Assembly: GCF_001577265.1 (NCBI RefSeq)
Contig: NZ_CP014517.1
Location: 611,001 to 675,000, forward strand
DNA from: Variovorax sp. PAMC 28711
GTDB taxonomy: Bacteria > Pseudomonadota > Gammaproteobacteria > Burkholderiales > Burkholderiaceae_C
Direction of reading: 5' to 3'
Length of the DNA stretch: 64,000 nt
Part shown: piece by piece, positions 48,450-63,798 of the stretch
Position numbering within the stretch: position 1 is the first letter of the stretch
Layout of the letters: the number at the start of each line of letters is the position of its first letter
Position numbers and translations under genes: made by a program
The notes under the pieces: model-generated
Seen by the model: the letters and a program-made list of their open reading frames with translations, nothing else
Database searches by the model: none
Told to the model about the DNA's origin: nothing

Positions 48450-48995
48450 TCACATCAGTGCCTCTGATCTCGGCGCGAATCCGGCGTGCGTTGTATGCAC
48501 GCGGCGCTCCGGCAGAGCGTCTCGATGGGCGCTAATCATGATCACGCTCGCTTCCACGGCGAGCCGAATTTCGTTGCTTATTCCGGTTACCCCCACAAGC
48601 GACGCGATGCATTGCTCGGCGCCCTGCTTCTGAAATGGCCAGTCAAGCTGCCCTGCCAGCGTGACCCAGCCGTTCTCGACCTCGACGTAGACAGAGCCGA
48701 CCGGCAGGTAGGTGATCCACTCGATCACGTCCTGGGCGGAACGGGCGATGTCGGCATCCACGCGCACACTCTCCTCGCCCAGTTCGACCGCGAGCTCACC
48801 CACCAGCGCGGCCACCCCCGCGACGCGTTCGATGACATGCCGCGCTCGCCACTTCTCGGTGTAGGTCGCTACACGGCCGCTCCAGGAGATCACCCCCGCG
48901 CGGGCGTCGATCTCGATGAAGGTCGCGTCGACGGAGGGCTCCCAGGCCAGTTCGGCCAGCACATCGCGCCGGAGTCGGGCATCTGTTTTCTTCAT
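48450..48995 (-). CDS. BON-domain protein with degenerate third domain
   Basis: A 181-aa paralogue of the intact BON protein at 61424-62080. Two BON domains are clear: DVLAELAWEPSVDATFIEIDAR through GVAALVGELAVEL, then ADIARSAQDVIEWITYLPVGSVYVEVENGWVTLAGQLDWPFQKQ. After about residue 150 the frame leaves homology. Pieces of a third BON domain can still be read in other frames (ARRIRAEIRGTDV, about 48440-48500), so the 3' end has decayed. BON domains bind phospholipid or envelope surfaces. Its ATG overlaps the uspA remnant, and a copy of the shared island motif lies 52 bases upstream. Confidence 0.75.
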   Translation of the reverse strand: MKKTDARLRRDVLAELAWEPSVDATFIEIDARAGVISWSGRVATYTEKWRARHVIERVAGVAALVGELAVELGEESVRVDADIARSAQDVIEWITYLPVGSVYVEVENGWVTLAGQLDWPFQKQGAEQCIASLVGVTGISNEIRLAVEASVIMISAHRDALPERRVHTTHAGFAPRSEALM

Positions 48996-49306
48996 TGCAT
49001 TGCGCCTCGTGTTGCAAAGCCGGAGCATCGCGCGCGCGACAGGCCGGGTCTGTGCGCTGCCACACCAAGCGCACCGGCACGCTGTTTCACCAGCACCACG
49101 GGTTGCCGTGCCGTCGCGAGCACGCGCTGCGCCACCGACCCCATGAGCAGGTCGGCGAAGGCGCCGCGTCCCTTGGCGCCCAGCACGATGAGGTCGTACT
49201 TTCCGGTGTTCGCGCAATCGACGATCTCCTTGGCCGATCAGTTCGGCAGCGTATTGACGGCCCGCAACGCGTGCTTCGAACCGTCAGTGGCGACGAGCAT
49301 TTTCAT
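48992..49306 (-). pseudogene. Universal stress protein (UspA) remnant with internal deletion
   Basis: The start at ATG 49306 (MKMLVATDGSKHALRAVNTL) and the C-terminal block (KYDLIVLGAKGRGAFADLLMGSVAQRVLATARQPVVLVK) are in the same frame. Between them only about 10 codons remain where a UspA normally has about 70, and a TGA at 49238-49240 interrupts. The deletion cannot be a one-base error, so this is a true pseudogene. It is coupled by ATGA to the P-type ATPase upstream and runs into the BON gene. Confidence 0.85.
49045..49061 (-). promoter_or_regulatory. Island motif copy 1, upstream of the truncated BON gene
   Basis: CGGGTCTGTGCGCTGCC on the plus strand; core CGCACAGAC on the minus strand ends 52 bases before the BON ATG (48995). 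Identical over 17 bases to copy 3 at 56362. It lies inside the 3' end of the uspA remnant. Confidence 0.6.
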
Positions 49307-52170
49307 GGTCTTCTTTCGGAGTGGATCGGGGTTCGGGAATGAAAGGCGCGGCTGGCCCACTTGCGCAGCTCGCCGTACCAGACCACCACGCTGGCCATGA
49401 CGACGCACAGCGCCCATTGCTGCGCAGACAGGGGCGCAGTGCCGAAGGCCCGGTTGAGAAAGCCAAGATGGACCACGGCCACCTGCAGCACGACCGCGAG
49501 CGCGACGGCGCCCCAGAGCCAGCGGTTGACGAAGAGCTGCGAGAAGGCGCTGCGGCGATCGGAGCGCGCGTTGAAGCAATTGAAGAGCTGCGCCAGCACC
49601 AGCACGGTGAAGCCTGCGGTGCGCGCGGTGGTCAGGTCCTGGTGGCCCTCGACCATTCCGCCCGGCAGAAGGATGTCGATGGTCAGTAGCGTCACGAGCG
49701 CGATCACCAGACCGACCTGGAGCACTTCGGACCCCATGCGCGCATCGATCACCCGTTCGCCGCGCGCACGCGGCTTGCGTGCCATCACGTCGTCGGTCGG
49801 CGGATCGATGCCCATCGCCAAGGCAGGGCCGGTGTCGGTCACGAGGTTGATCCAGAGAATCTGCGTGGCGAGCAGGGGCAGCACCACGCCACCGCCCGTG
49901 CCGGCCAGGCCCAGCACGCCGGCCCCGACGACGCCCAGGAACACGGTGAGCACCTCCCCCATGTTGGACGAGAGCAGGTAGCGCAGCGCTTTGCGGATGT
50001 TGTCGAAGATGCTGCGGCCTTCGCGCACCGCCTCGACGATGGTCGCGAAGTTGTCGTCCACCAGGATCATCCGCGCGGCCTCGCGCGTCACTTCGGTGCC
50101 GGTCATGCCCATGGCGATGCCGATGTCCGCCGCCTTGAGCGCCGGCGCGTCGTTGACGCCGTCGCCCGTCATCGCGACCACGTTGCCCGCGGCCTGCAGC
50201 GCGGCGACGATGCGCAGCTTGTGCGCCGGCGCCACCCGAGCGAAAACCGAGGTCTTGCGCACCGCCTCGGCGAAACCCGCCTCGTCGAGTGCATCGAGTT
50301 GCAGACCCGTCAGAGCGACGGCGCCTTCCGCGACGATGCCGAGGTCTTCAGCGATGCGGGTCGCGGTGCGCGGATGGTCGCCAGTGATCATGACCACGCG
50401 GATGCCGGCGCGCTGCGCCTCACGGATCGCCACCGCCACCTCGGCACGCGGCGGGTCGATGATGCCGACCGTGCCGACGAAGACGAGGTCGTCTTCAAGG
50501 ACCTCGAGCCCTTCGCGGGGCGTGGGCGCATCGCCCCCTCGCGTCATCGAAGCGGATTCCTGCGCGGTCAGTGGCCGATAGGCCACGGCCAGCGTGCGCA
50601 GCGCGGCATCGGACAGCGCGTCGACATCGGCCACGATGCGCGCACGCATTGTGGCGTCCAGCGGCTTCACGTCCATACCGACGCGCACACGCTGGCACCG
50701 CGACAACAGCACGCCGGGCGCGCCCTTGGCCACGAGCATGAGCTGGTCGCCGTGCGTGTGATCGCGCTCGATCGTCGACATCATCTTGCGTTCGGACGTG
50801 AAAGGCATCTCGGCGACGCGCTCGAAGCGCTTCTTGCGCTGCGCAGTCAGCCCCATCTTGCGTTCGGCGACGAGGAAGGCGGCCTCGGTCGGATCGCCCT
50901 GGATCGTCCATGCGCCGCCTTCACCCTGGTGCAGCTGCGCATCGCCGGCCAGACTGCCGCCCGCCAGCACGACGGTCTGCTCTTCGCGCAACGGCCCGGC
51001 CTGCAGCTCGGCGCCGTCGAGCTCCACACGGCCCTCCGGCACATAGCCGGCGCCCGTGATGCGCGTGGTGCCCGAAGCCGTCACCACCCGCTCGATGGTC
51101 ATCTCCGCGCGCGTGAGCGTGCCGGTCTTGTCGGTGCAGATGATCGACGCTGCGCCCAGCGTTTCGACCGACGACAGCTTCTTCACGATGGCCTTGTGCC
51201 TGGCCATGCGCTGCACCCCCATGGCCAGCACCACCGACAGGATGGCGGGCAAGCCCTCCGGCACGGCCGCCACCGCGAGCGACACGCCGAGCAGCAACAC
51301 GGCGACGACCTCCGCCGCGGTGGGGTGGCCGGACACCAGCAGGATCGTCGCCACCACCACGGCGGCGATCACCAAAACCGCGATGCCCAGCACGCGACCG
51401 ATGCGCGCCACCTCGATGCCGAGCGGCGTCGGCGCCTCGACCGTGGCGTCCAGCATGCCGGCGATCGCGCCCATCTCGGTCTGCATGCCGGTGGCGGTGA
51501 CGACCGCACGGCCGACGCCCTGGGCGACGGCGGTGCCCTTGAACACCATGTCGAGACGGTCGCCCAGCGCGCCGGGTTCGGCCAGCGTCGCAGGGTCCTT
51601 CTGTACCGCCTCGCTCTCGCCCGTGAGCGAAGCCTCGAGTACGCGAAGGGAAGATGCCTCGATCAGACGCGCATCGGCGCCGACGGCATCGCCCTCGGCT
51701 AGCACCAGGATGTCGCCGGGCACCAGCTCGGCACTGGGGACCCGGAAAGTCCGGCCGTCGCGGACGACGGACGAAGTCACTGCCGTCATGCGGGCCAGCG
51801 CGGCCACGGCATCCGCGGCCTTCGCCTGCTGCACGAAGCCGAGCACCGCGTTGAGCAACAGCACCGTCGCGATCACCAGTGCGTCGAGCGGCCAGCCCAC
51901 GAAACCCTCGAGCGCCCAGGCACCGAGCGCCACCGCGATGGCGAACCCGAGCAGGTAGACCAGCGGATCGCGGAACTGGGCCAGCACCCGTCGCCACGTG
52001 GGCACGGGCGGCGCGGCGCGCAGCGCGTTGCGCCCGTGCTCGGTCAGCCGCTGCGCGGCCTGCTGCGCAGAGAGCCCACGCGCCGCATCGACCGAGAGCG
52101 ACTGCAGCACCCGCTCGGCCGACTGCACGGAGGGATCGCCGGCAGACCCTTCTGCACCGTCAGCGGCCAT
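49303..52170 (-). CDS. Cation-translocating P-type ATPase (P2A, calcium-type)
   Basis: A 955-aa ion pump. Order: cation ATPase N-domain (residues 15-85), actuator domain with TGES (183-186), TM4 motif AAVPEGLP (301-308), phosphorylation site D347 in CTDKTGTLT, nucleotide domain, MTGDGVNDAPALKAADIG hinge, and C-terminal cation ATPase helices. PEGL in TM4 marks P2 Ca2+/Mn2+-type pumps and not the CPx heavy-metal type. It overlaps the cytochrome c gene upstream by 11 bases and is coupled to the uspA remnant. The family includes mycobacterial CtpF, induced in hypoxia. Confidence 0.92.
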   Translation of the reverse strand: MAADGAEGSAGDPSVQSAERVLQSLSVDAARGLSAQQAAQRLTEHGRNALRAAPPVPTWRRVLAQFRDPLVYLLGFAIAVALGAWALEGFVGWPLDALVIATVLLLNAVLGFVQQAKAADAVAALARMTAVTSSVVRDGRTFRVPSAELVPGDILVLAEGDAVGADARLIEASSLRVLEASLTGESEAVQKDPATLAEPGALGDRLDMVFKGTAVAQGVGRAVVTATGMQTEMGAIAGMLDATVEAPTPLGIEVARIGRVLGIAVLVIAAVVVATILLVSGHPTAAEVVAVLLLGVSLAVAAVPEGLPAILSVVLAMGVQRMARHKAIVKKLSSVETLGAASIICTDKTGTLTRAEMTIERVVTASGTTRITGAGYVPEGRVELDGAELQAGPLREEQTVVLAGGSLAGDAQLHQGEGGAWTIQGDPTEAAFLVAERKMGLTAQRKKRFERVAEMPFTSERKMMSTIERDHTHGDQLMLVAKGAPGVLLSRCQRVRVGMDVKPLDATMRARIVADVDALSDAALRTLAVAYRPLTAQESASMTRGGDAPTPREGLEVLEDDLVFVGTVGIIDPPRAEVAVAIREAQRAGIRVVMITGDHPRTATRIAEDLGIVAEGAVALTGLQLDALDEAGFAEAVRKTSVFARVAPAHKLRIVAALQAAGNVVAMTGDGVNDAPALKAADIGIAMGMTGTEVTREAARMILVDDNFATIVEAVREGRSIFDNIRKALRYLLSSNMGEVLTVFLGVVGAGVLGLAGTGGGVVLPLLATQILWINLVTDTGPALAMGIDPPTDDVMARKPRARGERVIDARMGSEVLQVGLVIALVTLLTIDILLPGGMVEGHQDLTTARTAGFTVLVLAQLFNCFNARSDRRSAFSQLFVNRWLWGAVALAVVLQVAVVHLGFLNRAFGTAPLSAQQWALCVVMASVVVWYGELRKWASRAFHSRTPIHSERRP

Positions 52171-52552
52171 CCGGCCCGACAGGTTGGGCGCGCGCCACGG
52201 GCGCCACCATCGGCGGATAGCGATAGAAGCGCTCGTTCAGGTAGCGCGACACGGCCTGGATGTCGCTCTCGTTCCAGCCCAGCCCCGAGGCATCCTGCCA
52301 GCGGCGCACCTGGAACATGAGGGACGACCAGTCGGTGGCGGCCTTCTTGTCGCGCCAGTGCATCTCGGTCGTATGACAGGTGACGCAATGGGTCGAATAG
52401 AGCAGCTCGCCCCGGCCCTGGCTCTGCGCCGGGGCCTGCAGCGGGGTCTGCATCGGCGTCTGTGCGCGAACTGCAAGCACCGGGGCGAGAGCACCCAGCA
52501 GCGTGGCCATGGCCAGGGCACCGGTGCGGCGGAATCGGGAATGCGGGTTCAT
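52160..52552 (-). CDS. Small cytochrome c
   Basis: A 130-aa periplasmic mono-haem cytochrome. The signal peptide ends near AVRAQ, the haem site is CVTCH (YSTHCVTCHTTEMHWRDKK), and the distal methionine is likely in SLMFQVRRW. Two starts are possible: ATG 52552 (chosen, AGGAG upstream) or 52600. It is the first gene of an operon with the P-type ATPase; copy 2 of the island motif lies upstream. Confidence 0.85.
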   Translation of the reverse strand: MNPHSRFRRTGALAMATLLGALAPVLAVRAQTPMQTPLQAPAQSQGRGELLYSTHCVTCHTTEMHWRDKKAATDWSSLMFQVRRWQDASGLGWNESDIQAVSRYLNERFYRYPPMVAPVARAQPVGPDGR

Positions 52553-52616
52553 GCGTGGGCTCCTTAGCGACGGTCGGAAAGCCGCCGTACCCTTCACCAT
52601 GCCGCGGCATCCGCCG

Positions 52617-52633
52617 CCCGTCTGTGCGCTGGC
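52617..52633 (-). promoter_or_regulatory. Island motif copy 2, upstream of the cytochrome c-ATPase operon
   Basis: CCCGTCTGTGCGCTGGC differs from copies 1 and 3 only near the ends; the core GTCTGTGCGCTG is kept. It lies between the ABC ATPase stop and the cytochrome start, 67 bases upstream of ATG 52552. Confidence 0.5.
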
Positions 52634-52645
52634 GAACGTGCGGCG

Positions 52646-53318
<673 letters not shown>

Positions 53319-53326
<8 letters not shown>

Positions 53327-54584
53327 GGATGGCCACCACGGGGTCGAGGCGCGCAGCACGGCGTGCCGGCGCGAAGGCCGCGGCCAGGCCGGTGAGCATG
53401 GCAAGCAGCAGCGCATAGACGAACAGCATCGGCTCCAGCGCCAGCGCGAACAACGGCGTGCCGTCTGCATTGAGTGCGGTGCGTTGCCACAGCACGAGGA
53501 TGCCGGCGCCCAGCAGGCAGCCCGCCACCGACCCCGCCAGCCCGAGCAGCCCGCCCTGCAGGAGGAACATCCGCATGATCTGCGCCTGCGAGATGCCCAT
53601 CGCGCGCAGGATGCCGATCTCGCGCGCCTTCTGCACCACCACCACGGCCATCACGCTGGCGATGCCGAACGCGACCGACAGGCCGACGAAGAAGCGGATC
53701 GCCGTGTTGGCCAGCGTCTGCGCGTTCACGGCGCTGAAGAACTCCGCGTTCGTCTTGATCCAACTGTCGGCCTGGACCCCCGTGGAGGCGGTGATCCGCT
53801 GCGCGATGCGCTCGGCGGCATAGACGTCCTCCACCGTCACCTCCAGGCTGGTGACGCCACCCGGCAGCCCGAGCAGGCTTTGCGCGGTGCGCAGCGCGAC
53901 GAAGGTGTTGCGTGCGTTCGCGCCCTTGTTGCCAAGATCGAAGATGCCGGTGATGGTGAGCGTCAGCGCGGCGCCCGTGGCGTCCGACCCGGTGGCGCTG
54001 GTCGCGGTCGACAGCCGCAGCTTGTCGCCCACCTGCAGGCCGAGGTCGTCCGCCAGTTCGGTGCCGATGAGGATGTCGCTCGTCGTCAACTGCGCACGGC
54101 CGCGCACGATCTTCGAGGCCAGGTCGACGATTCGGAAGTACTGCGCCGGCTCCACGCCCGCCACCGACACCGCGCGGTTGGCGTTGCCCCGCACCACCAG
54201 CGCGGAGCCGCCGGCCACCGAGGCCACCACCTTCAGCTCGGGCATGGTGCGGATCTGCGCCATCACCGACTGCCACTGGTCGATGGACTTGAGCCGCTGC
54301 AGCGGCGGCTGGACGATGGCGCCTTCCACCTCACCCGGCGCTGCATGCGCGCCCATGCGCAACGGGCGCGACACCTCCTTGGGCGGCAGCAGTTCGATGT
54401 GCGCCTGCGCCGACAGCACCCGCCGGATGAAGTTGCCTTGCAGCCCGGCCATGAGCGCGGACATGAACACGATCACGGCCACGCCGATCGCCACGCCCGC
54501 CATGATGAACACCGTCTGCAAGCGGCCTTCGCGCAAGAAGCGAATCGCGAGGATCCATTCGAAGGGCAGCAGCGGGTTGAACAT
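53319..54584 (-). CDS. ABC transporter permease (MacB/LolC type, FtsX domain)
   Basis: A 421-aa permease with four transmembrane helices: one at the start ([28 protein letters not shown]) and three in the C-terminal FtsX domain ([28 protein letters not shown] onward). A periplasmic MacB-PCD domain lies between. This is the layout of proteins that push lipoproteins, peptides or drugs out of the envelope. It starts 5 bases after the adaptor gene and overlaps the ATPase gene by 8 bases. Confidence 0.9.
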
Positions 54585-54589
54585 CGCAC

Positions 54590-55837
54590 TCAGGGGTTGG
54601 CGACCGCGGCGGCCCGCACGCGCGCACCGGCCGCTGCACTGGCGGCCACGGGCACCACGCGGTCCCCTTCGGCGAGGCCTTCGAGCACCTCGGCCACGCC
54701 GCCGCTGCGCAGGCCGATGCGCAGCGCCCGCCGCACCGCGTGGCGCCCCTCGATGCGCAACACCCAGGGCGCCGCGCCGTCCGCGTCGTGCAACGACGTC
54801 GCCGGCACGACCAGTGCGGCGGGGCGGCGCGCCACTTCGATGTCGACCGAGACCGTCATGTCCTGCTTGAGCACCGGCGGCGGCTGCGGCACGTCGAGCT
54901 TGACCTCGACGGCGCCGGTCTGTGCGTTGACGCCCGGGTTCACATAGGAAAGCACCGCGTCGAAGCGTTCCTGCGGGTACGCGTCGGCCGACACCCGCGC
55001 CGGCTGGCCGAGCGCCAGCAGGCGCAGGTTCTTCTCGTCGATCTGCACCACCAGCTGGGTGCGACCCGCAGGCGAGAGCGTCATCAGCACCTTGCCGGGC
55101 TGCACCACGTCGCCCGGCTCGACGCTGCGGCCGATGAGCGTGCCGGCCAGCGGCGCCACGATCACCGCGTAGCCGGCACGGGCCCGCGCCGCATGGGCAT
55201 TGGCATCGGCCGACGCCACGTCCGCAACCGCGAGCGCCGTGTCGCTGCCGGTGCGGCCCAGGCTGTCGAGCTGCATCTGCGCCGATCGCACTTCGGCGTC
55301 CGCGAGCTCGGCCACCTTGCGTGCGTCGTCGAGGGCGGCGCGGCCGACGAAGCCCTGCGCGAACAGGGCCTGGCTGCGTCCGAGCGAGGTGTTGGCGTTG
55401 ACGAGCGCGGCCTGTGCCTGGCGCACCGACTGCGCGCCGACCGGTGCCTGCACCTCGCGCAGCCGCCGCAGCCGGGCCTGCGCCTGCGCCGCTGCCGCAT
55501 CGGCCTGCGCGGTGGCCGCGGCCAGTTCGGCCGACTCCAGGCTGATCAGCAACTGGCCCGCATGCACCCGCTCGCCCTCTTCCACCGGTACCTGCTGCAC
55601 GGTCCCGGTGATCTGCGCGCCGATGTCCACCCGGTGCGGCGCCTCGACGCGCCCGCTGGCCACCACGGTCTGCACGAAGTCGCGGCGCACCACCGCATCG
55701 ACGGGCACGACGGGCCCCTGCCACCAGCGCCAGCCGAGCACCGCGCATCCCGCGAGGACGAGCAGCGCCGCGCCGATGGCCCACCGATGCTGGCGCCACC
55801 ACGATGGCGCGGGCGGGACCGGCGGCTGGTCGCTCAC
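54590..55837 (-). CDS. Periplasmic adaptor (MacA/HlyD type)
   Basis: A 415-aa membrane-fusion protein. A single N-terminal membrane helix (WAIGAALLVLAGCAVLGW) is followed by VVASGRVEAPHRVDIGAQITGTVQQVPVEEGERVHAGQLL, the first lipoyl half. A long helical hairpin, then APLAGTLIGRSVEPGDVVQPGKVLMTLSP and a beta-barrel follow. With the FtsX permease and ATPase it makes a MacAB-like exporter. No TolC gene is adjacent in the island. GTG 55837 is coupled to the preceding gene. Confidence 0.9.
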   Translation of the reverse strand: MSDQPPVPPAPSWWRQHRWAIGAALLVLAGCAVLGWRWWQGPVVPVDAVVRRDFVQTVVASGRVEAPHRVDIGAQITGTVQQVPVEEGERVHAGQLLISLESAELAAATAQADAAAAQAQARLRRLREVQAPVGAQSVRQAQAALVNANTSLGRSQALFAQGFVGRAALDDARKVAELADAEVRSAQMQLDSLGRTGSDTALAVADVASADANAHAARARAGYAVIVAPLAGTLIGRSVEPGDVVQPGKVLMTLSPAGRTQLVVQIDEKNLRLLALGQPARVSADAYPQERFDAVLSYVNPGVNAQTGAVEVKLDVPQPPPVLKQDMTVSVDIEVARRPAALVVPATSLHDADGAAPWVLRIEGRHAVRRALRIGLRSGGVAEVLEGLAEGDRVVPVAASAAAGARVRAAAVANP

Positions 55838-56310
55838 GTCCGCAGCCGGGCGCAGGTGGCGCGCGCGGCATCGCGCACGGCACGCAGGTCGCTGCCGACC
55901 AGATCGACCGGCAGGTGCCCGCCCAGCACTTCGTGCGGCTCGGCGAACCAGCAGGCCACAGCCCAGCCGTCCAGCGCGTCGGGCAGTTCGAGCCGCACCG
56001 CCTGCGGCGCGAAAGCCACAGAGAGGTCCGCCGGATCGAACTGGAACATCGGGAGCCACAGGCTTCCACGCCAGCCGAACCCGAAGACCTGCCGCGACAC
56101 GATCAGCCGAGCCAGCGTGACCAGGTCGCCGCGCCGATGGTCCTTCATCATTTCGCTCATCGCGTCGCCCGGTGCGGTACCGCCCGAGGCACGGAACGCC
56201 TTGAGCAGGTGCAGGAAGGCCCGCGTGCCCGGTGCGGCGGGCGTCGATTCGAAACAGGGCGGCGGCGCCGAAGCGATGCGGGTCGAAGGCGCTGATTGCA
56301 CGGCGTTCAT
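55834..56310 (-). CDS. MbcA/ParS/Xre-like (DUF2384-type) protein heading the exporter operon
   Basis: A 158-aa soluble protein. The second half reads VFGFGWRGSLWLPMFQFDPADL, then DALDGWAVACWFAEPHEVLGGHLPVDLVGSDLRAVRDAARA. It resembles the toxin-binding C-terminal domain of MbcA/ParS/Xre antitoxins (W-x-x-Pxx-L-x-G-xxPxDLL pattern). No RES-type toxin gene is adjacent and no clear helix-turn-helix is seen, so an antitoxin role is unproven. It is the first gene of the exporter operon, with copy 3 of the island motif 52 bases upstream. Confidence 0.65.
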   Translation of the reverse strand: MNAVQSAPSTRIASAPPPCFESTPAAPGTRAFLHLLKAFRASGGTAPGDAMSEMMKDHRRGDLVTLARLIVSRQVFGFGWRGSLWLPMFQFDPADLSVAFAPQAVRLELPDALDGWAVACWFAEPHEVLGGHLPVDLVGSDLRAVRDAARATCARLRT

Positions 56311-56361
56311 GGGGGCCTCGGCGTTGTGGCGTGGTGCCGCATGCTCGCGCCCTGCGGGCCG

Positions 56362-56378
56362 CGGGTCTGTGCGCTGCC
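56362..56378 (-). promoter_or_regulatory. Island motif copy 3, between exporter operon and kinase gene
   Basis: CGGGTCTGTGCGCTGCC, identical to copy 1. The minus-strand core lies about 54 bases from ATG 56310, the same distance as in copies 1 and 4. It lies 19 bases before the plus-strand kinase start. Confidence 0.6.
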
Positions 56379-56396
56379 GAACCCACCCCTGCCTGT

Positions 56397-57941
56397 ATGG
56401 TGTGTCGGGTGAACACCTCTTCCCTCCTGGCCGCGGCCGCTGCTCGCGTCGCGACCCTGCAGGCGTCGCTCACGGTCCGCGACGGCGCGCCGGCGAAGCT
56501 GATCGAAATCCACATCTCCTGGCTGCTGCTCGGCCAGTCGACGGCCTACAAGCTCAAGAAGCCCTTGCGCCTGCCCTTCCTCGACTGCACGACGCTGGCC
56601 GCGCGCCAGCGCTTCTGCGAAGAGGAACTGCGGCTCAACCGCCGCCTGGCGCCTTCGCTCTACCTCGACGTGGTGCCGATCTGCGACGACGGCCACGGCG
56701 CCACTTTCGGCGGCCCGGGCGAAGCGGTCGATGCCGCGGTCTGCATGCAGCGGTTTCCGGATGGCGCCTTGTGGCGCGAGATGCTGCGGGCCGGCACGCT
56801 GGCCCCGCACCACGTCGACGCGCTGGCGCAGACCCTCGCCGCCTTCCACCACGATGCCGCAGTGGCGCCCGCGGGCAGCGCATTCGGATCGCCCGCGGCG
56901 CACGAGAAAGTGCTGCACGGCCTGCGCGAAACGGTCGCCACGCCGACGCTGGCCGCGTGGTTGGAGGCGCAACTCGCGACCCTCGCGCCCTGGTGGACCG
57001 CACGGCAACGCGACGGCCGTGTGCGCGAATGCCACGGCGACCTGCACCTGGGCAACGTGCTGCAACTCGACGGCGACGCGATCGCGTTCGACGGGATCGA
57101 GTTCGACGCCGCACTGCGCTGGACCGACGTGGTCGACGACATCGCCTTCCTCGCCATGGACCTGCTCGCGCACGACCGCCGCGCGCTGGCCTTCCGCTTT
57201 CTCAACGCCTACTTTTCAGCGAGCGGCGACTACGACGCCCTGCCCGGCCTGCGATTCGCCATGGTGTGCCGCGCGCTGGTCCGCGCGCAGGTGACCACGC
57301 TCGCCGCGCAGCAGGGCGTGCACGCCGTCGAGGGTTGCGACGCGGCCGCGTACACGGCGCTCGCCGAAGCGCTGTCGCGCAGCACCGACCCGCGGCTCGC
57401 CATCACCCACGGCCTCCCGGGGTCTGGCAAGAGCTTCGTCTCGCAAGGCGTGCTCGAGGCGGCCGGTGCGGTCTGCGTGCGTTCCGACGTCGAGCGCAAG
57501 CGCCTGTTCGGGCTCGACGCGCTGGCCTCGTCCCGCGACCATGTGCCCGCAGGCATCTACGACCCGGCGACCACGCGCCGCACCTACGCGCGCCTGCAAG
57601 CGGTGGCCGACACCGCCCTGCAGAGCGGCTGGCCGGTGATCGTCGACGCGGCGTTCCTGCGCCATTCGGAGAGGGCCGCGTTCGCCGACCTTGCCGCATC
57701 GCGACGCGCACCCTTTGCCATCTTCGATTGCCGGGCGGCGCTGCCGCTGCTTCGCCAACGCATCCAGTTGCGCATGGCCGCCGGCGCGGACCCTTCGGAG
57801 GCCGATCTGTCGGTGCTCGAGAAGCTGGCGGGCGTGGATGAGCCACTGCAGGGGATGGAAGCCGCCGCCGCCATCGTGGCGGACGCCGCCGCGATGGCCG
57901 CACCGGAGAGCCTGGCCCGGCAGTGGCTCGAGGCCGCCTGA
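56397..57941 (+). CDS. Aminoglycoside phosphotransferase-like / P-loop kinase fusion
   Basis: A 514-aa two-domain protein. The N-terminal APH-like kinase domain has VRECHGDLHLGNVLQLDGDAIAFDGIEFD, with the catalytic HGDLHxxN and metal IxFDxIEF motifs. The C-terminal AAA_33 P-loop domain has ITHGLPGSGKSFVSQ (Walker A) and acts on an unknown small molecule. The same fusion is known in Mycobacterium as Rv2004c of the hypoxia (DosR) regulon. Start at ATG 56397 or GTG 56409. It is divergent from the exporter operon. True aminoglycoside resistance is unlikely. Confidence 0.85.
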   Translation: MVCRVNTSSLLAAAAARVATLQASLTVRDGAPAKLIEIHISWLLLGQSTAYKLKKPLRLPFLDCTTLAARQRFCEEELRLNRRLAPSLYLDVVPICDDGHGATFGGPGEAVDAAVCMQRFPDGALWREMLRAGTLAPHHVDALAQTLAAFHHDAAVAPAGSAFGSPAAHEKVLHGLRETVATPTLAAWLEAQLATLAPWWTARQRDGRVRECHGDLHLGNVLQLDGDAIAFDGIEFDAALRWTDVVDDIAFLAMDLLAHDRRALAFRFLNAYFSASGDYDALPGLRFAMVCRALVRAQVTTLAAQQGVHAVEGCDAAAYTALAEALSRSTDPRLAITHGLPGSGKSFVSQGVLEAAGAVCVRSDVERKRLFGLDALASSRDHVPAGIYDPATTRRTYARLQAVADTALQSGWPVIVDAAFLRHSERAAFADLAASRRAPFAIFDCRAALPLLRQRIQLRMAAGADPSEADLSVLEKLAGVDEPLQGMEAAAAIVADAAAMAAPESLARQWLEAA

Positions 57942-57968
57942 CCGCACGACGTGCAGCCGCGCGGTGGG

Positions 57969-58613
57969 CTATCCCTCGTGGACTGCGGCGCGATCGAAGC
58001 GGGACAACACCGCCACGATCAGCACCGCCGCCACGGGACCGGCGAACGGATGCAGCAGGGACGCGAGGATGGGCGCCACCAGGATCAGGTGCCGAAGGCC
58101 CCAGCTGTAGAGCAGCCCCGCGCGCCGCACATAGGCCGCGCCGGCGGGGGCCCAGCGTTGCCGCGCCTCCGATTCCAGCGGCATCCCGCTGATGAAGCCC
58201 GCATGGTTGTAGTAGCGCACCGCCATGGCCGAGCAGACCAATGACGCGAACAGCAAGGTGAGCAGCAGCAGCTCGAGTACGAGCCGGGGCGTGAGGCGTG
58301 GCAATGCGGCCGCTTCACCCAGGCTCACATGCAGCGACGGCGCCGCGAGCGTGACCGTGCCCATGAGGCCGAGCACCGCGGTCGAGGCCGTCATGGTGGC
58401 CGACATCAGCGCGTTGCGCAGGGTCTGCACCGACAGCAGCTCGGACCCCCCGTGCAGCGACACCGCAGCGAACCAGTCCTCACGCAATGCGGCATGCGCG
58501 GTACGCGCCATGCGGTCCGGCCGGCGTCGCTGCGCCACGGCCACTGCGGCCTCGTAGCCGAACAGCAGCACGAAGGTGACCAGCGTGGACAGCCAGACCG
58601 TGTCGACGTTCAT
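57969..58613 (-). CDS. DUF599 membrane protein
   Basis: A 214-aa membrane protein with four helices. YEAAVAVAQRRRPDRMARTAHAALREDWF near the N-terminus, QTLRNALMSATMTASTAVLGLMG, and VRYYNHAGFISG are DUF599 landmarks. Function is unknown. It lies 9 bases after the second YeeE half-gene and is the last gene of that minus-strand operon. Confidence 0.82.
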   Translation of the reverse strand: MNVDTVWLSTLVTFVLLFGYEAAVAVAQRRRPDRMARTAHAALREDWFAAVSLHGGSELLSVQTLRNALMSATMTASTAVLGLMGTVTLAAPSLHVSLGEAAALPRLTPRLVLELLLLTLLFASLVCSAMAVRYYNHAGFISGMPLESEARQRWAPAGAAYVRRAGLLYSWGLRHLILVAPILASLLHPFAGPVAAVLIVAVLSRFDRAAVHEG

Positions 58614-58622
58614 CGTCGGGCC

Positions 58623-59063
58623 TCAGGCGGCACGCGGCTGCAACGCCTGGCGGCGGCGCTCCAGCAGCTCGAAAACGCCCATGCCCGCCAACATCGCGAG
58701 CACGAACGCGAGCGCCTTGGCCTGCCCCATGCCGAGCGCGACCAACCCGGGGCCCGGGCAGAAGCCCGCCACGCCCCAGCCGATGCCGAACAACACGCTG
58801 CCGAGGACCAGGCGGCGGTCGATGTCGCGCGCAGTGGGCAGCTTCATGGCCGCGCCGAGCAGCGACACCGAGCGCTTCCTGGCCACCGCGAACGCGATCG
58901 CGGCGACCGCGATCGCGCCGCCCATCACGAACGCGAGCGACGGGTCCCATGCGCCGGCGAGATCGAGGAACCCCAGCACCTTGGCCGGGTTGGCCATGCC
59001 GGAGAGGATGAGGCCCAGTCCGAAGACAAGGCCCGAGAGCAGGGAGACGAAAACGGTGGTCAT
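58623..59063 (-). CDS. YeeE/YedE family half-transporter (second subunit)
   Basis: A 146-aa membrane protein with four helices. GLGLILSGMANPAKVLGFLDLAGAWDPSLAFVMGGA and GIGWGVAGFCPGPGLVALG are the YeeE signatures with the conserved cysteine that handles thiosulfate or sulfide-like sulfur. Together with the next upstream gene it makes a split YeeE/YedE pair, as in PmpA/PmpB. It belongs to the BigR operon. Confidence 0.9.
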   Translation of the reverse strand: MTTVFVSLLSGLVFGLGLILSGMANPAKVLGFLDLAGAWDPSLAFVMGGAIAVAAIAFAVARKRSVSLLGAAMKLPTARDIDRRLVLGSVLFGIGWGVAGFCPGPGLVALGMGQAKALAFVLAMLAGMGVFELLERRRQALQPRAA

Positions 59064-59071
59064 GGGATTCC

Positions 59072-59509
59072 TCAGAGACCGAACAGGTGACGCGTCACGA
59101 ACACCGTGACGAAGCCGGCCGCCATGAAGGTCACCGTGGCGACCATGGAGCGCGGCGACAGGCGCGCCAATCCGCACACACCGTGGCCGCTGGTGCAGCC
59201 CGCGCCGTAGCGGGTGCCGACGCCTACCAGCAGCCCTGCGGCCACCAGCGCGCCGAACTGCGCATCGATCCGAGGGGTCGGCAACACGGCGAACAGGCCG
59301 TAGACCACGGGCGCGCCGACCAGGCCGATCACGAAGGCCGCCCGCCAGGCCACGTCGCCGCCGACCGGTCTGAACAGCCCGCCGAGGACGCCGCTGATGC
59401 CGGCGATCCGTCCGTTGAGCAACACGAACATCGCCGCAGCGAGGCCGATGAGCACCCCGCCCGACAGGGCCGACCAGGGGGTGAATGCATTCCATGCAAT
59501 CGTCATCAT
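59072..59509 (-). CDS. YeeE/YedE family half-transporter (first subunit)
   Basis: A 145-aa membrane protein with four helices. [34 protein letters not shown] and [37 protein letters not shown] carry the conserved cysteine GCTSGHG motif of sulfur-compound channels. ATG 59509 overlaps the BigR stop in ATGA. It is likely to move a sulfur species across the inner membrane when persulfides build up. Confidence 0.92.
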
Positions 59510-59832
59510 TTTTCCTTGGGACAGTAGAGACGGTAGAGCACCGCGAGGATCTCGAGCAGGTCGGGATCGACCACGCTGTAGAAGATGTTCTTGCCTTCGC
59601 GGCGGGTGTTGACCACGCCTTCGTTGCGCAGCACGCCCAGTTGCTGGGAGAGGGTCGGCTGCCGGATGCCGAGCTGCACCTCGAGTTCGCTCACGCACAT
59701 CTCGCCTTGCGAAAGCTGGCACAGCAACAACATGCGTTCCACGTTGGCGAGCAGCTTGAGCGCGCCGACCGCCTTGTCGGCTGCAAGACGAAGTGTTTCG
59801 GGGTCGAGCGCCGGAGGCGAGGCTGCTTTCAT
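59506..59832 (-). CDS. bigR: ArsR family persulfide-sensing regulator (BigR/SqrR type)
   Basis: A 108-aa winged-helix repressor. [41 protein letters not shown] is the DNA-binding block. C38 (LLLCQL) and C104 (LYCPKEK) are 66 residues apart, exactly as the two redox cysteines of Xylella BigR (C42 and C108), which link through sulfur in the presence of persulfide. It heads the operon with two YeeE genes and faces the persulfide dioxygenase-like gene. It should repress both until sulfide or persulfide is present. Confidence 0.92.
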
Positions 59833-59845
59833 GAGTCGATCGAAG

Positions 59846-59907
59846 TGTTAAAGAAGTTGCTTCATTATATTCATAGATATATTATTTTTCAATAGATTAA
59901 AAATCAC
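59846..59907. promoter_or_regulatory. AT-rich divergent promoter/operator of the BigR module
   Basis: Between the BigR ATG and the dioxygenase ATG lies about 60 bases of strongly AT-rich DNA, unlike the rest of the window, with TTCATTATATTCATAG and ATATATTATT elements. The loosely symmetric ATTATAT...ATATATTAT block is a plausible BigR operator, and TATATT-type sequence could serve as -10 in either direction. Confidence 0.55.
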
Positions 59908-59924
59908 GAAAGCGAGAACCCGCC

Positions 59925-60833
59925 ATGAACCACCGCGCCATCACCCAGGCCTTCTTCGACCCCGGGACCTGGACCGTCACCTACCTCGTGTGGGACCCTG
60001 CGACCCTGCGCGCCGCCGTCATCGACCCCGTGCTCGACTACGACTTCAAGTCGGGCCACACCGCGAGCGCGTCGTCGGACAAGGTCATCGCCTGCGTGGA
60101 GCGCCACGCGCTGCAGGTCGACTGGATCCTCGAGACCCACGCCCACGCGGATCACCTCTCGGGCGCGCGCTACCTGCAGGAGCGCCTCGGCGGCAAGATC
60201 GCCATCGGCGAGAACATCCGTGTCGTGCAGGCCACCTTCAAGAAGCTCTACAACCTGGAGCGCAGCTTCCTGCCCGATGGCAGCCAGTTCGATCACCTGT
60301 TCAAGGACGGCGAGACCTTCATGATCGGCAGCATCGAGGCCCGCGCCTTGCTGGTGCCCGGCCACACACCGGCCGACATGGCCTACCTCATCGAGGACGC
60401 CGTGTTCGTCGGCGACACCCTCTTCATGCCGGACGTCGGCAGTGCACGCGCCGACTTCCCCGGCGGCGATGCCCATCAGCTGTACGGCTCGATGCGGCGG
60501 CTGCTCGCCCTGCCGCCCGAGACCCGCATGTACGTGTGCCACGACTATCCGCCGGCCTCGCGTGCGGCGCACTGGGAAAGCACCGTCGCCGAGCAGCGCG
60601 CACACAACGTCCATGCACACGACGGCATCGGCGAAGACGAATTCGTGGCGATGCGGCAGGCACGCGACGCCACGCTCGATGTGCCCACGCTGATCCTGCC
60701 GTCCATCCAGGTCAACGTGCGCGCCGGTCACCTCCCGCCGACCGACGAGAACGGGGTCTCCTACCTGCGCATTCCGCTGAATGCATTGCCGGTTCACGGC
60801 GCGGTGCCTGCGCCCACGCGCACGCCGCAGTGA
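59925..60833 (+). CDS. Metallo-beta-lactamase fold persulfide dioxygenase-like protein (Blh type)
   Basis: A 302-aa MBL-fold enzyme. The metal motif THAHADHLSG gives ligands H72, H74, D76 and H77; VPGHTPADMAYLIEDAVFVGDTLF supplies the remaining His and Asp. YVCHDYPP follows. It matches Blh/ETHE1-like enzymes that oxidise glutathione persulfide to sulfite using one iron. Divergent placement from bigR and the YeeE genes supports sulfide detoxification. The C-terminus also has NVRAGHLPPTDENGVSYLRIPLN, common in this branch. Confidence 0.92.
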   Translation: MNHRAITQAFFDPGTWTVTYLVWDPATLRAAVIDPVLDYDFKSGHTASASSDKVIACVERHALQVDWILETHAHADHLSGARYLQERLGGKIAIGENIRVVQATFKKLYNLERSFLPDGSQFDHLFKDGETFMIGSIEARALLVPGHTPADMAYLIEDAVFVGDTLFMPDVGSARADFPGGDAHQLYGSMRRLLALPPETRMYVCHDYPPASRAAHWESTVAEQRAHNVHAHDGIGEDEFVAMRQARDATLDVPTLILPSIQVNVRAGHLPPTDENGVSYLRIPLNALPVHGAVPAPTRTPQ

Positions 60834-60837
60834 AGAG

Positions 60838-61413
60838 TCAGCGCGCCGCCCCTGGCCCTGCGAGTGTGTTCACGGCCGGCGGCAGCGGCTTCAAGTCGAG
60901 GCTGTAGCGCACCTGGGTGGCGTCGTCCGGGTCGGGCTCGTGGCGCAGGCCCATGTGCGCGGCGAACCGGCGCATCAGTTCGTTGTCCCATGCGTCGCTG
61001 GAGTACATGTTGCGCAGGCCGCGCTGGCGGGCGGTCGCGATCAGGTGCTCCATCAGCAGCGTGCCGAGGCCCTTCTGCTGCCACGCGTCGGCCACGGTGA
61101 CCGCGAACTCGCAGTCCTTGCCGCCCCGGTCGGCGCTGAAGCGGCCCACGCCAATCGGCGCTTCGCGCGAGCCGGTCACCGTCACCGCCACGAAGGCCGC
61201 ATCGGTCGCGGGGTCGAGCACCGTCAGCTGCTTGAGCAGCGCTTCGCTCGGCGTCTTCATCGTTTCGAGAAAGCGGAAACGTCGTGCGACCGGCGACAAC
61301 GCTTCGATGAAGCGACGCTCCATTTCGGCGTCCTGCGAATGCAGCGGGCGAATGAGCACCCGGTCGCCGCCGCGGATGATGCGCACCCAGCCTTCGGTTT
61401 GAACGTCGGTCAT
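60838..61413 (-). CDS. GNAT family N-acetyltransferase
   Basis: A 191-aa acetyltransferase. The acetyl-CoA loop is VADAWQQKGLGTLLMEHLIATARQRGLRNMYS (Q-x-x-G-x-G). FIEALSPVARRFRFLETMKTPSEALLKQLT is the lead region common to GNAT enzymes that act on proteins near universal-stress or acetyl-CoA synthetase genes. It starts 10 bases after the BON gene, in the same direction and presumably the same transcript. The substrate is unknown. Confidence 0.88.
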   Translation of the reverse strand: MTDVQTEGWVRIIRGGDRVLIRPLHSQDAEMERRFIEALSPVARRFRFLETMKTPSEALLKQLTVLDPATDAAFVAVTVTGSREAPIGVGRFSADRGGKDCEFAVTVADAWQQKGLGTLLMEHLIATARQRGLRNMYSSDAWDNELMRRFAAHMGLRHEPDPDDATQVRYSLDLKPLPPAVNTLAGPGAAR

Positions 61414-61423
61414 GGCGGGCGCC

Positions 61424-62080
61424 TCAATCGGTCACGACCATGTGGTCGATCACGCGCTGCACGCCCGGCGTGCTCCAGGCGGTGCGGCGCGCCAGTGAGC
61501 GCTCCGACCAGCTGTGCACCGTGCCCGCGAGCGTCACGTCCGACCCATCGATCGCCACCGTGATGTCGCGCGCCGCCGCATGGGCGCGGCGCTGCAGCGC
61601 GGTCTCGATGTCGTCCTTCACGGCGCTCATCGCCACCTTGGCCTTGAGCACGATCTGGTCGCTCACGCCCGTCACGCCCATGAGCGAGCGCACGCCCGAC
61701 TCTGCGCCCTCCTTCTGGAACGCCCAGTCGACCTGGCCGCTCAGGGTGATCCATCCGTTCTCGACGAGCACCTTGACCGCGTCCTTGGGCAGGTAGGTCA
61801 TCCACTCGATCACGTTCTCGGCCGAGCGCGCGATGTCGGCATCGGTGCGCGTGTTGCTGTCGGGCAGCTTGACGTCGATCTCGATGGCCAGCGCCTTGAC
61901 GCCGCTCACGCGCTGGGCCGCGCGCTCGGCCTCCCACTTGGCATTAAAGCTCTCCACGTGGCCGGCGAGCGTCACGATGCCCTCGTGCACCTCGACGCCG
62001 ATCGCCGCGGCATCGACCGAGGGCTCCCACGCGAGTTCGGCGAGCACGTCGTGCTGGATCTGGCTGTCGGTCTTGGTCAT
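61424..62080 (-). CDS. BON-domain protein, three domains
   Basis: A 218-aa protein with three BON modules: residues about 4-70 (QHDVLAELAWEPSVDAAAIGVEVHEGIVTLAGHV), 76-145 (ADIARSAENVIEWMTYLPKDAVKVLVENGWITLSGQVDW) and 150-217 (DDIETALQRRAHAAARDITVAIDGSDVTLAGTV). No signal peptide is seen. BON modules bind lipids or cell-envelope parts and occur in osmotic-stress proteins such as OsmY. The truncated gene at 48450 is its paralogue. Copy 4 of the island motif lies 53 bases upstream. ATG 62080 is preceded by AGGA. Confidence 0.9.
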   Translation of the reverse strand: MTKTDSQIQHDVLAELAWEPSVDAAAIGVEVHEGIVTLAGHVESFNAKWEAERAAQRVSGVKALAIEIDVKLPDSNTRTDADIARSAENVIEWMTYLPKDAVKVLVENGWITLSGQVDWAFQKEGAESGVRSLMGVTGVSDQIVLKAKVAMSAVKDDIETALQRRAHAAARDITVAIDGSDVTLAGTVHSWSERSLARRTAWSTPGVQRVIDHMVVTD

Positions 62081-62130
62081 AGCGTTTCGTCCTGGTTGCA
62101 AAAACATCAGCTTGCGCGGCGGACGGCCCG

Positions 62131-62147
62131 CGGGTCTGTGCGGTAAC
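62131..62147 (-). promoter_or_regulatory. Island motif copy 4, upstream of the intact BON gene
   Basis: CGGGTCTGTGCGGTAAC keeps the first 12 bases of copies 1 and 3. The minus-strand core CGCACAGAC ends 53 bases before ATG 62080. It lies in the gap between the antiporter stop and the BON gene. Confidence 0.55.
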
Positions 62148-62165
62148 GCACCGGTCGGACTCCGA

Positions 62166-63798
62166 TCAGAGGTAGCGCGCTTCCTGCAGGTCGATCTCGC
62201 GCACCATCCGACCCTGCGCCGCTTCCGTGATCCGGCGGTCGCGACCGCGCTGCAGGACCTGTTCGCGCTCCGCGCGCAGCCCGAGCAGCCGCAACTGACG
62301 ATCGACGGCGTCCGCCGCGTGGCGGCGCGCAGCGGTGGCGCCTTCGGCGGGGTCGGGATCGATCCGCTGGCGGTACATGGCGATCAGACGGGCGGTCGTT
62401 GCGGCGTACGGGTCGGCGGCGCTGCCGGCATCGCCCGACACCAGTGCCAGGCGAGCTGCCTGCGCGCGTTCGAGCGCCACGATGGCGGCTTCGGCCGCAC
62501 CCGCCCGGGCCCGGTCCTCCTCGACGACGTGCGAAGCCTCGGGCAACGCCACACCCCGGAGCGCGCGCGGCAGCAGCACCGTCGCGGCGACGAGCGACAT
62601 CAGGATGACCCCCGCCGCCAGCGCGATCGCCAGGTCGCGCGCCGGAAACGGAGCGCCATCGCCCAGCAGCAGCGGCAGCGTCATCACGCCCGCGAGCGTG
62701 ACCGCCCCGCGCACCCCTGCGAGCGACATGGCGGCCACCACGCGCCAGCGCTGGCCGTGCGAGATGGGCGTGAGCGACTGCATGCCGAAGAAGGTGACCA
62801 TCATCGAAGTCCAGACCCACGCGAAGCGCAGGCCCGCGAGGGCCACGACGATGCCAAGCACGTACACGCCGAGCCACCACGGATTCTGGTGCCCGGTGAG
62901 CCGCACCGTCTCGCCGGCCCCCGCCACGATGGAAGGAATCTGCTCCCCGAGCAGCACGAACACGCTGCCGTTCGCCACCAGCTGCAGCGTGTACCACACG
63001 GCGGTGCGGCGGATGCGCGTGATCGCCTGCCAGTGCGCGTGCGGGCTGTGGCCCATCGTGATGCCGGCGGCGACGGCAGCGAGGATGCCCGAGCACTCCA
63101 TCGCCTCGGCCAGCAGGTAGACGCCGAACGGGATCAGCACGCTCGCCAGGATCTGCGCGCCACCGTCGTCGCCGACCGGTGCCGACGACGTGCGAACCTT
63201 GGTCACCAGCCAGGTCACCGTGAAGCCGACACCCAGCCCGCCCGATGCGACCCATAGAAAACTCAACAGCGCCTGCGACAGGGCGAACGATCCGGTCAGC
63301 GCGGCGACCACGGCAAAGCGCATGCACACGAGCCCGACGCGTCGTTGAACAGGGCTTCGCCTTCGAGGATGCGGCGCATGCGCAGCGGCAGCGGCGTCTG
63401 CCCCGCAATGGCGGACACCGCGATCGGATCGGTCGGCGAGATCACCGCCGCCAGCGCGAACGCGACGGCCAGCGGCATCGCCGGGATGGCCCAGTGGATC
63501 AGCAGCCCGATGCCAGCACCGTGAAGACCACCAGTCCCAGGGCGAGCGTGACGATGGTGGGCGCTTCGCGACGCAGGTCGTCCTTGGGGATGCGCCAGCC
63601 ATCGAGGAACAGCAGCGGCGGCAGCAGAAGCAGGAAGAACACCTGTGGCTCGAGCGGCACGGACGTGAGGCCCGAATAGAACAGCGCGCTACCCAGTGCG
63701 ATCTGGATCAGCGGCACGGGCAGTGGGACCACGCGCGCGATCAGCCTGCTGCCGACGACCGCCAGCAGCATGAGCAGGACGAGTCGCGTGGCGTCCAA
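62166..63798 (-). pseudogene. Na+/H+ antiporter (CPA1 type), two apparent frameshifts
   Basis: Read across frames it begins near TTG 63798 (DATRLVLLMLLAVVGSRLIARVVPLPVPLIQIALG). It continues after a missing base near 63508 as GLLIHWAIPAMPLAVAFALAAVISPTDPIAVSAIAG, and after a second missing base near 63332 as LVCMRFAVVAALTGSF to LQEARYL. Restored length is 544 aa, normal for CPA1 antiporters with about twelve helices and a soluble tail. ISPTDPIAV holds the ion-binding aspartate. Both gaps are at G/C runs, so consensus error is likely and the gene may be intact. Confidence 0.85.

Follow-up and report, generated by a model that had tools for sequence, protein, structure and literature searches.

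A candidate CRP/FNR-type operator dyad at the promoters of a stress island in Variovorax sp. PAMC 28711

The operator of CRP is TGTGA-N6-TCACA, base 7 of which is contacted by Glu181 of the protein, and the ligands of the FNR cluster are mainly N-terminal. The accessible part of PMC4886647 gives TGTGA as the half-site of CRP and TTGAT-N4-ATCAA, centred at -41.5, as the class II operator of FNR; that of PMC12531629 names Arg180, Glu181, and Arg185 as the base contacts of CRP. As far as the available portions of PMC9104464 and PMC3759415 describe it, the lxa locus of Burkholderia cenocepacia is a low-oxygen-activated island of metabolic, stress, and transport genes that serves the survival of non-growing cells. 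Here, we describe a 22-bp inverted repeat (the dyad), identified by sequence analysis, in an island of Variovorax sp. PAMC 28711 that resembles lxa in general description. The window analyzed (64,000 nucleotides, positions 611001-675000 of the 4.3-Mb single-contig genome) was joined with the next 60 kb, giving 124 kb in which genes were called by a simple script. The centre of the island (678-685 kb of the genome) encodes three CRP/FNR-like paralogues, termed regulators A, B, and C, and the dyad is very probably the operator of regulators of this superfamily, to judge from the sequence comparisons below. No earlier description of the half-site, the regulator subfamily, or the regulon was found in the literature searched, the coverage of which mostly excludes subscription journals.

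The first-pass annotation of the window had reported a 17-bp motif upstream of four minus-strand units, identical at 49045 and 56362 and with near copies at 52617 and 62131. These positions are right (the near copies bear three mismatches each), and so are the names of the genes behind the motif and the start-codon distances, which were re-measured from CGCACAGAC (Table 1). With up to three mismatches allowed, the 17-mer has six matches in the window against 1.41 expected, a number reached by 0 of 100 shuffles; a further match with three mismatches lies at 26133, outside the island. The motif is, in fact, the promoter-proximal half of the inverted repeat GTCTGTKCG-CYRG-CGCACAGAC. The natural unit is this 22-bp dyad and not the 17-mer, the flanks of the core being poorly conserved in relatives. 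An iterated profile yields GTCTGTGCG-CYRG-CGCACAGAC, the symmetry of which is partly built in, as a palindromic site scores on either strand. Readings of the motif as a direct repeat or as a sigma-54 element were dropped, by eye, on seeing the dyad. The 9-base core GTCTGTGCG occurs six times in the window, with every copy at 49-62 kb and on one strand only. Two copies, at 52458 and 54918 (both intragenic), were set aside; they look like chance matches because they score below the cut-off of the full 22-bp profile. The claim that the motif has no copy outside the island thus stands for the exact core in the window. In the genome, however, the island itself continues up to about 732 kb, and there is another small cluster at 4.251-4.257 Mb.

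The position of the dyad relative to promoter elements is the first line of evidence for its function. CGCACAGAC occurs exactly 14 times in the 124 kb, and 12 of these copies are intergenic, each with a start codon on the same strand 30-152 nt downstream. A hexamer 18 nt past the GAC of the intergenic copies has the consensus NANNNT; as counted by eye, position 2 is A in 11 of the 12 copies and position 6 is T in 9. The -35 box of sigma-70 promoters is TTGACA; from the hexamer spacing, GAC is therefore the centre of such a box, followed by a 17-bp spacer. If the last base of the hexamer is placed at -7, the centre of the dyad falls at -41.5 of the projected start.

The same arrangement is found in relatives. 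The sample comprised the best 80 of at least 587 confirmed named loci that encode close relatives of the CRP-type regulators of the island (1.36 Mb, with loci of up to 20.7 kb). Most are from Burkholderiales (Variovorax, Polaromonas, Ramlibacter, Rubrivivax, Collimonas, and others) and a few from gammaproteobacteria (Thermomonas, Thiocystis, Dyella, and Rhodanobacter). Among 9-mers with at least 60 occurrences, evaluated with an order-3 Markov model, CGCACAGAC is the most over-represented, with 105 copies against 8.2 expected, in 53 of the 80 loci. These 105 copies were selected by the right half alone, with the genome of Variovorax sp. PAMC 28711 left out, and the columns around them show a conserved mirror left half (G 90%, T 86%, G or T 75%, C 72%, G 80%). 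On the 3' side of the right half, nothing notable appears until the hexamer at its fixed distance (A 65%, T 66%); each of the left-half and hexamer columns tested has a binomial p <1e-16. It might be argued that a motif with a fixed spacing to a -10-like hexamer is itself the promoter of an alternative sigma factor, or else a dispersed repeat, and no activator site at all. In our opinion this is highly improbable, given the dyad symmetry and the covariation with the regulator described below; moreover, a repeat element would show conservation outside the dyad and the hexamer, which is absent.

With the 22-bp profile, trained on these same loci, 344 sites are found and each of the 80 loci has at least one; the reversed sequences give 17. 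In a held-out test, with 40 loci used for training, the remaining 40 yield 171 sites (reversed, 5), again with at least one in every locus. A site lies within 350 bp upstream of 66 of the 80 regulator genes, typically near 100 bp. The predicted geometry matches that of class II promoters activated by CRP/FNR, except that the half-site is TGTGCG in place of TGTGA or TTGAT. The initial proposal of a promoter-linked site of a common regulon is thus borne out by the fixed -10 spacing, the intergenic location, the orientation to the next gene, the conservation across Burkholderiales, and the linkage to a regulator family. Its companion statement, that the motif fits no familiar consensus such as FNR, holds for the half-site, but the architecture (a 22-bp dyad at -41.5 overlapping the -35 box) is that of the CRP/FNR superfamily. 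Like FNR/Anr class II promoters, the sites combine a 5+4+5 dyad register with that projected centre, the -35 overlap, and a regulator of CRP/FNR fold; unlike them, they have the half-site GTGCG (consensus GTGCG-N4-CGCAC) in place of TTGAT. With CRP and GlxR the sites share TGTG at the same positions, from which they differ in reading TGTGC or TGTTC, with C replacing the A after TGTG.

The second, and in our opinion the strongest, line of evidence that these proteins bind the motif is the covariation of one regulator residue with one operator base. The recognition helix is VRREGVTE, the Arg-Glu of which aligns with the Arg-Glu of GlxR in a profile alignment. Residue 183 of the regulators occupies the position of CRP Glu181; most members of this family have Glu in place of the third contact residue, CRP Arg185. 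In total, 118 loci were sorted by residue 183, and half-sites were collected with the generic pattern GTNCG-N4-CGNAC; two unclassifiable loci were dropped. At CRP position 7, G or T is present in 273 of 332 half-sites from the 74 loci with Glu only and in 200 of 250 from the 35 loci with both Glu and Val, while A or C is present in 56 of 66 half-sites from the seven Ser loci. The latter are six plasmid records (Burkholderia, Paraburkholderia, and Cupriavidus) and one genome yielding no site. The background is higher in the Glu set, with reversed controls giving 51 for 166 sites, than in the Ser set, with 5 for 33. Since residue 183 and the base that it is predicted to contact change together, the regulators most likely bind the motif themselves.

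These results also bear on the proposal that the general CRP or Anr/FNR of the host binds the motif as a variant operator. The dyad register and spacing do equal those of the FNR operator in the accessible part of PMC4886647. However, the half-site is unlike those of CRP and FNR, site density tracks the linked regulator family, and base 7 tracks residue 183 of that family, which makes a host regulator a very improbable binder.

The distribution of sites in the genome agrees with binding by the island regulators. The pattern SSGTCTGTGCG has 35 matches genome-wide, compared with 13 for the backwards control pattern in the whole genome. Its placement is not random at similar density, as 12 of the 35 matches (2 of them intragenic) are concentrated at 660-705 kb, i.e., in 45 kb of 4.3 Mb, and from this clustering it follows that the island reaches beyond the window. 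In the 124 kb, the 22-bp profile finds 29 sites (reversed control, 1), all of them beyond the first 49 kb of the window; 27 of the 29 are intergenic, the intergenic share of the island sequence being 9.8%. Six divergent intergenic regions, at 688, 697, 700, 704, 708, and 717 kb, contain two sites each, for which the promoter profile prefers one per gene direction, one margin being only 0.1. The second small cluster (4.251-4.257 Mb; locus L044) comprises five sites and two regulator genes, one a close copy of regulator B and the other a paralogue of regulator C. It adjoins genes encoding a predicted Asp-Ala exchanger permease and a pyridoxal phosphate-dependent decarboxylase, which we take to resemble an amino-acid-dependent acid-resistance system. 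The pieces spanning 655-735 kb and 4.245-4.262 Mb showed neither tRNA nor tmRNA genes, so that no insertion site was identified in this way.

Regulators A, B, and C each match PF13545, the CRP-type winged helix-turn-helix, above its cut-off; no NCBIfam model scores above its own cut-off for any of the three. The cyclic nucleotide-binding (cNMP) domain is matched only weakly by A and B and, at a threshold of E 1e-3, not at all by C. Judged by motif, binding of cyclic AMP by the island regulators is unlikely. The nearest named relative of one regulator, from Variovorax sp. H27-G14, is 92% identical. An AlphaFold2 model of regulator B (predicted local distance difference test score 86.4) has the CRP fold, with an N-terminal beta barrel and a long central helix, and matches CRP of M. 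tuberculosis (4a2u, E 4e-13) and FNR of Aliivibrio fischeri (E 4e-12). Cysteines 141, 218, and 220 of regulator B, the last two forming a C-terminal CxC, are present in 75 of 75 aligned sequences and cysteine 152 in 73 of 75. An N-terminal cysteine cluster of the FNR type was not found in these 75 sequences, where the conserved cysteines are 141, 152, 218, and 220 only, none near the N-terminus, in contrast to FNR/Anr. The four near-invariant cysteines are possibly a metal, iron-sulfur, or thiol sensor. Regulator C represents a second paralogue type with Val at residue 183 (L041:3559-4251 (-), L044:6840-7664 (-), and L160:16059-16835 (+)). The sites before regulator C genes look different from the others, reading CTATGTGYG...CAGACAGTC, and have, in promoter orientation, G at position 7 of one half-site and C at that of the other. 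This perhaps reflects a distinct specificity or a mixed dimer.

It should be noted that the island also encodes a PAS histidine kinase, an orphan receiver, and a LuxR-type response regulator (684107-684658). The last, of the LuxR/FixJ type, lies in the island centre and is preceded by a site, and, fed by the kinase, it could bind the motif as in regulons of the FixLJ/DosR type. It was rejected as the binder because a relative is found in only 2 of the 80 site-carrying loci; orphan receivers are found in 5 and kinases in 14, although in loci of at most 20.7 kb such genes could lie elsewhere in the genome. A LuxR-type binder would, moreover, leave the covariation of residue 183 unexplained, and we consider it a most improbable candidate.

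Beyond the 80 loci, a comparison of 300 genomes of the order Burkholderiales, in which a close regulator was defined by E <= 1e-100, gave 178 TGTKCGNYRNCGMACA dyads (control 21) in 69 genomes with a close regulator, 34 (control 10) in 29 intermediate genomes, and 129 (control 39) in 202 genomes without a close regulator. One genome of the last set, G087, has 29 dyads but is no exception, because 28 of them, all copies of TGTTCGCTGCCGCACA, are spaced by multiples of 60 bp in a tandem array (G087:C1:473954-477929) that is unrelated to the regulon. Among 24 hand-picked pattern matches from the same genus, 10 lie within 350 bp upstream of a regulator, a count that is illustrative, regulator places having been entered for some contigs. 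At E <= 1e-20, a relative of the regulator is encoded by 189 plasmid records, and for 17 of these the identity is 60-80%. Sites exceed the reversed control on a plasmid of B. multivorans (7 against 1), on plasmid 3 of Variovorax WDL1 (5 against 1), and on pKLC102 of Pseudomonas aeruginosa (6 against 1 in 21.8 kb; locus L158). pKLC102 shares with the island a regulator 69.5% identical and genes for a glycoside hydrolase 94 and a fatty acid desaturase beside it; it differs in being a conjugative element on which candidate targets are few. Its regulator and sites flank the glycoside hydrolase 94 gene, which is 8.5 kb long (record 83988-94501).

Several observations weigh against assigning the dyad to these regulators or to a single regulon. 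Without G087, the 201 genomes lacking a close regulator still exceed the control (100 against 39). Within the genus, where a looser pattern was used and the genome of Variovorax sp. PAMC 28711 was left out, the difference is modest (p 0.0035): the 36 genomes that have the regulator give 129 matches (control 35), and the 36 that lack it give 81 (control 39). The genome comparisons ignore relatedness among genomes. The 66 Ser half-sites represent fewer independent events, because the six Ser loci share orthologous sites. At one of the four window sites, the hexamer at the expected -10 position is poor (Table 1). Finally, a site within 350 bp is present in 0 of 12 homologues of the glycoside hydrolase 94 gene, 0 of 4 of the MacB-type ATPase gene, 0 of 3 of the MbcA-like gene, and 1 of 5 of the phosphoketolase gene. 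The corresponding counts are 0 of 4 for the sensor kinase, 0 of 3 for the orphan receiver, and 1 of 4 for VIT1; a random 350-bp stretch holds 0.089 sites. Not all of these misses count against a shared regulon, since operon-internal genes are expected to lack a site. The BON genes keep the site in 7 of 8 loci each and the aldolase gene in 3 of 3. Upstream conservation at orthologues is thus present for both BON genes, but not for glycoside hydrolase 94, the MacB-type ATPase, the MbcA-like protein, and, mostly, phosphoketolase.

In the mechanism we propose, the dyad would be bound by CRP/FNR paralogues, most likely those at 678-685 kb together with the fourth at 4.253 Mb. The dimer at -41.5 would overlap a poor -35 element in which GAC is retained and would recruit sigma-70 polymerase to the -10 hexamer, as in class II CRP/FNR promoters. 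Sites precede the regulators' own genes, so the circuit is probably self-regulating. We infer activation rather than repression, the signal, the pairing of paralogues with sites, and binding itself, with activation and signal being less certain than the operator assignment. The same regulators might instead repress, or act either way depending on position. Autoregulatory sites are common, some sites are far from the fixed start-codon distance, and the divergent gene at the 56365 site starts 21 bp away from it. Nevertheless, the -41.5 centre and a degenerate -35 box with only GAC retained are typical of activator-dependent promoters, and repression is, in our opinion, unlikely.

As for physiology, the metabolic genes of the island encode phosphoketolase, acetate kinase, class I aldolase, and triose-phosphate isomerase, and others encode an F-type ATPase-like operon, a member of the Na+/H+-exchanger family, a cation ATPase, Hsp70, and ferritin-like, BON, and PRC-barrel proteins. 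Because of these metabolic, ATPase, and stress genes, the gene content suggests a low-oxygen or energy-failure signal, and the circuit activated by the dyad-binding regulators may turn on survival functions when respiration or the energy supply fails. The features at the four window sites and the regulator genes are collected in Table 1. A protein of the Na+/H+ exchanger family seems to be divided between two called frames (window 63499-63771 and 62166-63323, covering PF00999 profile positions 3-90 and 155-373), perhaps owing to a frameshift or a gene-calling gap.

Table 1. Operators, putative promoter elements, and genes at the four window sites (window coordinates), and CRP/FNR-like regulators (genome coordinates)
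Feature	Coordinates	Strand	Remark
22-bp dyad operator CTTGGTGTGGCAGCGCACAGAC	49048..49069	-	right half is the motif of the first-pass annotation
Putative -10 hexamer GATGCT	49024..49029	-	18 nt after GAC
BON-domain protein	48450..48995	-	start codon 52 nt after motif core
22-bp dyad operator GCACGTTCGCCAGCGCACAGAC	52620..52641	-	
Putative -10 hexamer CATGGT	52596..52601	-	
130-amino-acid protein, CVTCH haem-type motif	52160..52552	-	start 67 nt after core; no Pfam match
P-type cation ATPase	49303..52128	-	next gene downstream of the cytochrome-like 130-amino-acid gene
22-bp dyad operator GTGGGTTCGGCAGCGCACAGAC	56365..56386	-	between divergent genes
Putative -10 hexamer GAGCAT	56341..56346	-	
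158-amino-acid protein, weak MbcA/ParS C-terminal match	55834..56310	-	E 9e-4, below Pfam cut-off; start 54 nt after core
HlyD-type membrane fusion protein	54590..55837	-	in unit of the MbcA-like gene
ABC ATPase (MacB-type)	52646..53326	-	in unit of the MbcA-like gene
22-bp dyad operator ACCGGTGCGTTACCGCACAGAC	62134..62155	-	
Expected -10 position, GCAAGC	62110..62115	-	poor hexamer
BON-domain protein, three BON stretches	61424..62080	-	start 53 nt after core
GNAT acetyltransferase	60838..61413	-	next gene in BON unit of the 62134 site
CRP/FNR-like regulator A	genome 683200-683907		island
CRP/FNR-like regulator B	genome 684674-685390 (L041:9674-10390)		island
CRP/FNR-like regulator C	genome 678559-679251		island
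Fourth paralogue	genome 4252839-4253549 (4.253 Mb; regulator D)		

In kind, the motif is ordinary, being an operator of the CRP/FNR type in the class II position; it represents a new regulon and operator and not a new mechanism. Taken jointly, the observations allow the tentative proposal, which we regard as possible though not as probable, that widespread and partly plasmid-borne proteobacterial survival islands have a private CRP/FNR operator code. Glu, Ser, and Val paralogues would read different versions of the dyad, so that islands could move between hosts without cross-talk to the host CRP or Anr, and C141, C152, C218, and C220, placed unlike those of FNR, would sense redox state or energy failure.

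The analysis assigns to a large island of stress and energy-survival genes a defined operator and a set of candidate regulators, the family of which spans Burkholderiales, a few gammaproteobacteria, and plasmids, including those of clinical isolates. Poorly understood genes, such as those of the BON and PRC-barrel proteins and the F-type ATPase-like operon, among others, would thereby become a testable regulon. The joint change of one helix residue and one operator base would also offer a natural example of a specificity switch in the CRP family.

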